This document shows, piece by piece, positions 31,021 to 32,165 of a stretch of DNA of 64,000 bases. The position numbers and the translations under genes are program-made. A model generated the notes under the pieces. It did not search any database, was not told the origin of the DNA, and saw only the letters and a program-made list of their open reading frames with translations. Positions within the stretch are counted from its first letter, which is position 1. Each line of letters starts with the position of its first letter. Source of the DNA: an uncultured Alkaliphilus sp. (GTDB taxonomy: Bacteria; Bacillota; Clostridia; Peptostreptococcales; Natronincolaceae); contig CALJEQ010000008.1 of assembly GCA_938074565.1 (NCBI GenBank), positions 248,001 through 312,000 on the forward strand. The letters are read 5' to 3'.

Positions 31021-31209
31021 TTAGCTTCTATATTTGTCTGCCATTCTTTGTAGTTGTTGCGCCTGTACACCACTTTCTTCTGCAAAGTTCTTGAATAGTT
31101 CAGATAATTCTCTGTCTTCTGTATGCTTTGAAAACATTTCATAGTCCCTTACGGCTTCTTGTGCATCTAAAAGCTTTTTAGTAATCATATCTTTTGCACC
31201 TAAATTCAT
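31021..31209 (-). CDS. Small hypothetical protein, ferritin/spore-coat-like helical
   Basis: 62 aa MNLGAKDMITKKLLDAQEAVRDYEMFSKHTEDRELSELFKNFAEESGVQAQQLQRMADKYRS; GGAGGTG SD. Confidence 0.7.
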   Translation of the reverse strand: MNLGAKDMITKKLLDAQEAVRDYEMFSKHTEDRELSELFKNFAEESGVQAQQLQRMADKYRS

Positions 31210-31410
31210 AATACAGCACCTCCTTTTTATATTATTTTGCCTAAAGGTGGTGCAAATATGTAAGTAAAATTACATTAATATGAAATGTTGTTTGTGTTAA
31301 AATATTACAAAATACAAAAGATGTTTACCCCATCATATAAGTAAAACTAATAATACCTTAATGGAGAAACATCTCAATTTATTATTTAGTATTAAGACTT
31401 TTTTTATTAA

Positions 31411-31464
31411 TCAATGAACTACTGGATCTGGATCCTGCTTATGTAACCCTTTTTTGAATTCCAT
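31411..31464 (-). CDS. Candidate 17-aa micropeptide MEFKKGLHKQDPDPVVH (not in ORF track)
   Basis: ATG...TGA ORF preceded by AAAAGGAGGAGTAGGGA (perfect AGGAGG SD, 8-nt spacing). Confidence 0.55.
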   Translation of the reverse strand: MEFKKGLHKQDPDPVVH

Positions 31465-31540
31465 TCCCTACTCCTCCTTTTAAGTTTTTTAGTCTTGTAA
31501 GATAAGATTATGGACAATAACAACCCCCTATCCAACACAT

Positions 31541-31640
31541 TGATACAATCTGTATCTTTATTTTGCGATACAATTTGTATCATGTCAATGTTTTTTAAAA
31601 GTTTTTGTATCTTTTTGTATCAAGCGTTTCTTTTTGTATC
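31541..31640. promoter_or_regulatory. Cluster of operator-like repeats GATACAAnnTGTATC / TGTATC
   Basis: Palindromes at 31541-31556 and 31567-31581 plus half-sites at 31606, 31616, 31635; a TTGACA -35-like box (minus strand) abuts the second palindrome. Confidence 0.7.
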
Positions 31641-31675
31641 ATAATTCGATAGTATTATTTTGAGGTGATATAAAA

Positions 31676-32044
31676 GTGAAATTACCAGTTGTATTAAAAA
31701 AGTTACGGGCTGAAAAAGGTTTAACACAGGAAGACATAAGTAATGAACTAAAAATTAATAGAGCTACTTATGCTCATTATGAAACTGGTAGACGACAACC
31801 AGATACAGGAACTTTAGAAATGTTGGCAGAATATTTTAATGTTTCAGTTGACTATCTATTAGGACGTACATTAAAGAAAAGTTTATATGCTTTAAATGGT
31901 GAAGAAGTTCCAGTGGTTTTGAGGGAAATTGGAATAGAATATATTGAAATTGCAAGAGAAATGGAACAACATCAGTTGTCACCAGAAGAGATAAGAAAAA
32001 TATTAGAAGCTGTAAAAAATATTAAAAACAATAAAAACGAATAG
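31676..32044 (+). CDS. XRE family HTH transcriptional regulator
   Basis: LKKLRAEKGLTQEDISNELKINRATYAHYETGRRQPDTGTLEMLAEYFNVSVDYLLGR. Confidence 0.93.
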   Translation: MKLPVVLKKLRAEKGLTQEDISNELKINRATYAHYETGRRQPDTGTLEMLAEYFNVSVDYLLGRTLKKSLYALNGEEVPVVLREIGIEYIEIAREMEQHQLSPEEIRKILEAVKNIKNNKNE

Positions 32045-32111: not shown

Positions 32112-32165
32112 AAAATGCACCTTAAAGAATAGATATATGTCTATTTTTTAAGGTGCATTTTTTAT
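32112..32165 (+). terminator. Intrinsic terminator of the XRE gene
   Basis: AAAATGCACCTTAAA...TTTAAGGTGCATTTTTT with inner AATAGATAT stem. Confidence 0.8.

Follow-up and report, generated by a model that had tools for sequence, protein, structure and literature searches.

Leaderless micropeptides with pheromone-type tails beside XRE repressors and in a transfer operon of an uncultured Alkaliphilus

We analysed a stretch of 64,000 nucleotides from an uncultured Alkaliphilus sp. (contig CALJEQ010000008.1, positions 248,001 to 312,000; hereafter the window), in which a very small gene is oriented divergently from a gene for an XRE regulator. The small gene (31411-31464, minus strand) comprises 17 codons with the stop TGA and encodes the peptide MEFKKGLHKQDPDPVVH. 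As described in the initial annotation, its ATG is preceded at 8-nt spacing by the Shine-Dalgarno (SD) sequence AGGAGG (31473-31478, minus strand). By inspection, MEFKKGLHKQDPDPVVH lacks a secretion signal: there is no hydrophobic stretch, with at most five hydrophobic residues in any 14, and we refer to it as a leaderless micropeptide. A sigma-70-like promoter for this gene, TTGACA-17-CAAAAT (31560-31588, minus strand), is predicted from a match to the consensus only. A hairpin followed by a T-rich stretch (31318-31375, minus strand; −20.3 kcal/mol, z −4.6) is, likewise as a sequence-based prediction, the probable terminator of its mRNA; with such a hairpin after the stop codon, the micropeptide unit resembles a complete one-gene transcript. 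Also on the minus strand lies a 62-aa gene (31021-31209) with a weak DUF2383-like match. Its SD is located within an inverted repeat, GCACCACCTTT...AAAAGGAGGTGC (31215-31252), that could mask the SD; the fold is unexceptional (z −1.25).

The XRE gene (31676-32044, plus strand) has a GTG start and encodes a 122-aa repressor (HTH_3) for which profile and structure matches point to an ImmR/RstR-like HTH and a short helical tail; a terminator hairpin is predicted behind it (32112-32161, plus strand). The HTH is matched by PF01381 (E = 1.7e-16), the closest solved structure is ImmR of ICEBs1 (7t8i, E = 3.9e-9) and the NCBIfam RstR model reaches 60 bits, which is under its cut-off of 80. The predicted structure of the protein is of modest confidence (pLDDT 67). 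HTH families were the only matches along its 122 residues, none being to TPR, and no TPR gene was recognised among the ORFs surrounding the XRE and micropeptide genes. The relatives of the XRE protein that phages, plasmids and viral contigs encode are generic repressors. With its HTH and a multi-site operator in a divergent promoter, the locus resembles those of ImmR-type ICE repressors and RstR-family phage repressors; it differs from them in that no ImmA-type protease gene was found adjoining the XRE gene and in that the XRE protein is proposed to control a micropeptide. A paralogue at C8:243216-243551, 48% identical to the window XRE over most of its length, is divergent from a Cro-like XRE gene and not from a micropeptide.

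The 211-bp gap between the micropeptide and XRE genes had been annotated as holding two palindromes and at least three TGTATC half-sites, and all of these were confirmed. The palindrome GATACAATTTGTATC (31567-31581), annotated as lying just downstream of a minus-strand TTGACA box, is indeed situated within the spacer between the −35 and −10 boxes of the micropeptide promoter, and the second palindrome, TGATACAATCTGTATC (31541-31556), follows just 3' of the −10 box, so that the layout is suited to repression. Three extra TGTATC half-sites are found on the XRE side at 31606, 31616 and 31635 (31606-31640, plus strand). Altogether, the gap contains seven TGTATC/GATACA half-sites, compared to 0.14 expected and a maximum of three among 5000 Markov-simulated sequences, and the exact window palindrome has no second occurrence in the 3.68-Mb genome.

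Two further copies of the micropeptide are encoded in the same genome. The second copy, MDYKNIVFKQDPDPVVH (17 aa, C18:845-898), is divergent from the gene for a 154-aa XRE protein. The gap at this locus holds four TCAC-N5-GTGA palindromes with at most one mismatch, against 0.08 expected and never as many as four in 5000 simulated sequences; one of them is within the spacer of the micropeptide promoter TTGTAA-17-TAAAAT, and a terminator-like hairpin follows the gene as it does in the window. The C18 locus hence has the layout of the window with a different operator sequence, and this independent repetition supports the earlier view of an XRE gene and a small-peptide gene that share an operator cluster. 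The third copy, MKKQDPEPVVH (11 aa, C5:126254-126289), has no adjoining XRE gene; it sits in a conjugative element lodged in sigK, between an FtsK-type (TcpA-like) gene and a TcpC gene, and its stop codon is located just 5' of the SD of the tcpC-type gene. This element (C5:104658-149220) includes a serine recombinase (105031-106614), TcpA/TcpC-type genes, an RRNPP receptor and a pheromone, and it appears to split sigK in the manner of a conjugative skin element; the N-terminal (104658-105098) and C-terminal (148861-149220) parts of SigK were assigned by reading the translations. In its closest relatives (G008, G009 and G016), the micropeptide is absent at the tcpA-tcpC junction.

The three copies share nine codons (27 nt) with six variable sites, and all six are third positions (hypergeometric, 2.8e-4). 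The only residue change in these codons is D to E, and the stop codons all differ (TGA, TAG and TAA). Changes confined to third positions together with three different stops argue for selection on the peptide and not on DNA or RNA. The two 17-aa copies have freely diverging N-terminal codons, with differences at 10 of 21 nt, which points to the C-terminus as the working part of the micropeptide. Judged by these substitution patterns, the window micropeptide is a real, selected gene.

Conservation limited to the residues preceding the stop would also be expected of a cis-acting regulatory leader that sets the expression of a downstream gene by ribosome arrest or coupling, and the copy in the conjugative element ends in a position that would suit such a role. 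However, both XRE-linked copies are followed by strong T-rich-tailed hairpins with the next gene far away, the micropeptide loci gave no Rfam match at the gathering score, and the same type of tail is found on exported pheromones. We therefore regard a leader as very improbable. Among the roles suggested in the initial annotation (signal, antitoxin or leader), that of a leader is thus unlikely for the window and C18 copies and that of an antitoxin found no support, while that of a signal is supported, although not as a peptide peculiar to the window XRE, as detailed below.

Frame, codons and SD are kept among the three copies of this genome; the same peptide in relatives or other collections, the other sign of conservation that had been called for, was not found. 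Searches for the exact KQDPDP codons in 297 genomes of the order, for DPDPxxx* with an SD in 391 genomes of the class, for the micropeptide pattern with up to three mismatches in 60 relatives and for the D/E variant, allowing at most two mismatches, in 395 genomes of the order and 399 of the phylum each returned only the copies of this genome and a few chance matches. A scan of GTDB r220 gave 34 matches with no similar micropeptide among them, and scans of viral collections gave a few more, again with no similar micropeptide; the scanned sets may omit this genome. As the search patterns were tight, diverged tails would escape them. Relatives of the XRE gene in other genomes showed no KQDPxP-like divergent micropeptide upstream, and the peptide strings of the three micropeptides were not found in the published literature.

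But to which kind of peptide does such a tail belong? In the conjugative element on C5, an HTH-TPR receptor gene is followed by the gene of a leader-bearing pre-peptide ending in DNPNPTHV, and we thus searched contig stretches totalling 1.83 Mb, about half of the 3.68-Mb genome, for similar tails. Among 4087 ORFs of 9-90 aa whose start is supported by an SD, the tail [DN]PxPxxx-COOH is found on 11, and a version with one residue fewer or more on none; the motif was picked after seeing examples, and linkage to a receptor was not a search criterion. One of the 11, at C10:16715, was discarded as it lies inside a 745-aa ORF, probably that of pyruvate formate-lyase. The remaining ten are the three micropeptides and seven leader-bearing pre-peptides, and immediately upstream of each of the latter (7/7) is the gene of a TPR receptor of the RRNPP/Rap type. 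Their tails are HDPKPVIH (C5), NDPIPSGH (C18), GDPAPGVY and ENPNPKIF (C6), NDPAPIVK (C21), GDPAPKGD (C26) and the DNPNPTHV of the C5 element; their leaders, judged by eye, consist of a Lys-rich start and a hydrophobic core.

The C-terminus of the micropeptides hence matches the local pheromone type. That they belong to the RRNPP-type pheromone family of this genome, as leaderless members, is well supported at the level of sequence, and it supersedes the earlier statement that no family was recognised for the peptide. A common C-terminal motif among paralogous pheromones of one genome is also known from Qsp of the C. acetobutylicum Qsr-Qsp system (PMC7376267), which the pheromones studied here resemble in this respect. 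The unconserved N-termini might suggest that the micropeptide genes are functionless remnants of pheromone genes, which lost their leader by decay. This appears exceedingly improbable, since the tails changed in third positions only, the SDs are intact, and operators and terminator-like hairpins accompany the genes at two loci.

The divergent pairing at two loci and the operators in the peptide promoters would equally fit a micropeptide that serves as the ligand of the adjoining XRE protein, either as inducer or as antirepressor. Yet, the C-terminal halves of the window and C18 XRE proteins are unlike each other and the tails of their micropeptides are identical, which argues against the XRE proteins as receptors and for several inputs that drive one peptide. 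As the third copy has no XRE gene at its side and the same type of tail is carried by pheromones of TPR receptors, we consider an XRE ligand decidedly unlikely.

The usual source of an RRNPP pheromone is a pre-peptide encoded beside the receptor (PMC10075063). With the pre-peptides that directly follow TPR receptors in RRNPP(A)-type systems (Rap-Phr, NprR-NprX, Qsr-Qsp and the QssR-QssP system of C. saccharoperbutylacetonicum), the micropeptides have the [DN]PxPxxx tail in common. They differ in that all three are without an export leader and an adjoining TPR receptor, two being probably under short non-TPR XRE repressors and one in a transfer operon. Where an RRNPP pair has an adjoining TPR receptor of 250-500 aa, the nearest regulator of the window micropeptide is the 122-aa XRE protein. 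A second comparison concerns the leaderless communication peptides of Firmicutes, such as SIP of S. pyogenes, which are often divergent from their receptor; those known have about 8-9 codons, are aliphatic/aromatic and adjoin the TPR-bearing receptor RopB (PMC10518010). The window micropeptide is similar in being an ultrasmall leaderless ORF with a strong SD and divergent from an HTH regulator, and its pheromone-type tail would also suit a signal that leaves the cell by a non-Sec route and is re-imported to a TPR receptor, as SIP is. In contrast to SIP/RopB, the regulator beside the micropeptide has no TPR domain, the micropeptides, of 17, 17 and 11 aa, are longer and, instead of being mostly hydrophobic (PMC10518010), charged and rich in Pro, and leader-bearing paralogues suited for export already coexist with them in the genome. 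We thus consider an exported signal unlikely. Since the micropeptides lack defining features of both classes but have the RRNPP tail, they are better described as an RRNPP-like pheromone supply than as a standard member of either class.

Among the pre-peptide tails, both micropeptide tails clearly score highest against HDPKPVIH (BLOSUM scores of 34 and 36, with the next at 24 and 25), which is identical to QDPDPVVH in five of eight positions. No exported pheromone identical to a micropeptide tail was found in the 1.83 Mb read, about half of the genome, and a closer cognate receptor than that of HDPKPVIH may thus be encoded elsewhere. The receptor of HDPKPVIH (C5:207823-208929) is encoded directly after spo0A and spoIVB. 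It has TPR repeats (TPR_12, E = 4e-17) and lacks an HTH, its alignment with a 40%-identical HTH-TPR paralogue covering residues 101-445 of the latter, and is followed by the pheromone gene; it is Rap-like in that respect, and a Rap-like control of Spo0A in a lineage of Clostridia is possible. The HTH-TPR receptors at C5:165182-166498 and C21:15915-17246 are without an adjoining [DN]PxPxxx pre-peptide and are alternative candidates for the target of the micropeptides. The one on C21 forms a tandem with another receptor, which does have such a pre-peptide, and a receptor fragment is located at C8:120357-120629.

With a probability of about 0.6, we favour the reading that the micropeptides are leaderless, receptor-unlinked copies of RRNPP pheromones, which are under the control of XRE repressors or expressed with a transfer operon and feed a receptor from inside the cell. 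We infer repression by the XRE protein, action in the cytosol, trimming, the identity of the receptor and an effect on sporulation as its parts. The XRE repressor, bound to the palindromes of the shared divergent promoter region, would keep the micropeptide, and probably itself too, at a low level; upon derepression, the strong SD would lead to a burst of micropeptide. The peptide would remain in the cytosol and may be trimmed there by aminopeptidases that stall before X-Pro, as X-Pro bonds would stop such trimming near the core of the micropeptide; unless trimmed, the extra N-terminal residues could hinder receptor binding. The micropeptide would then take the place of a re-imported pheromone on a TPR receptor, the likeliest one being the HTH-less receptor beside spo0A whose own pheromone is HDPKPVIH. 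The second XRE unit on C18 and the transfer-operon copy in the sigK-inserted conjugative element on C5 would act likewise from other inputs.

In the usual description of RRNPP signalling, the pre-peptide is encoded next to its receptor, exported and imported again. In the genome studied here, genes that have neither a leader nor an adjoining receptor encode pheromone-type tails as well; they appear to be under unrelated switches, and one of them belongs to a transfer operon in the conjugative element found inside the sporulation gene sigK. Since three genes of this spore-forming bacterium encode such a tail without an export tag, the signal could arise inside a single cell, through a switch protein or through a mobile element, with no need for neighbouring cells. 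We see an even chance that host and mobile-element genes encode leaderless copies of a host pheromone, by which a repressor switch or activation of the conjugative element writes a ‘crowd’ signal directly into the cytosol, where it takes precedence over population sensing by the receptor beside spo0A. If such mimicry holds true, the density signal can be forced or faked by a cell or by the mobile element it carries, and genes of this kind are missed when pheromones are sought next to receptors. The locus would further offer a simple test of whether a Spo0A-linked TPR receptor of Clostridia can be driven intracellularly.

Two other leader-bearing peptides with a PxP motif have longer tails. One ends in EPRPDFSPIIQNM and follows an HTH-TPR gene (C8:244148-245411); the other (C5:110121-110240) ends in NPRPDSVVIEK and follows a 76-aa ORF.
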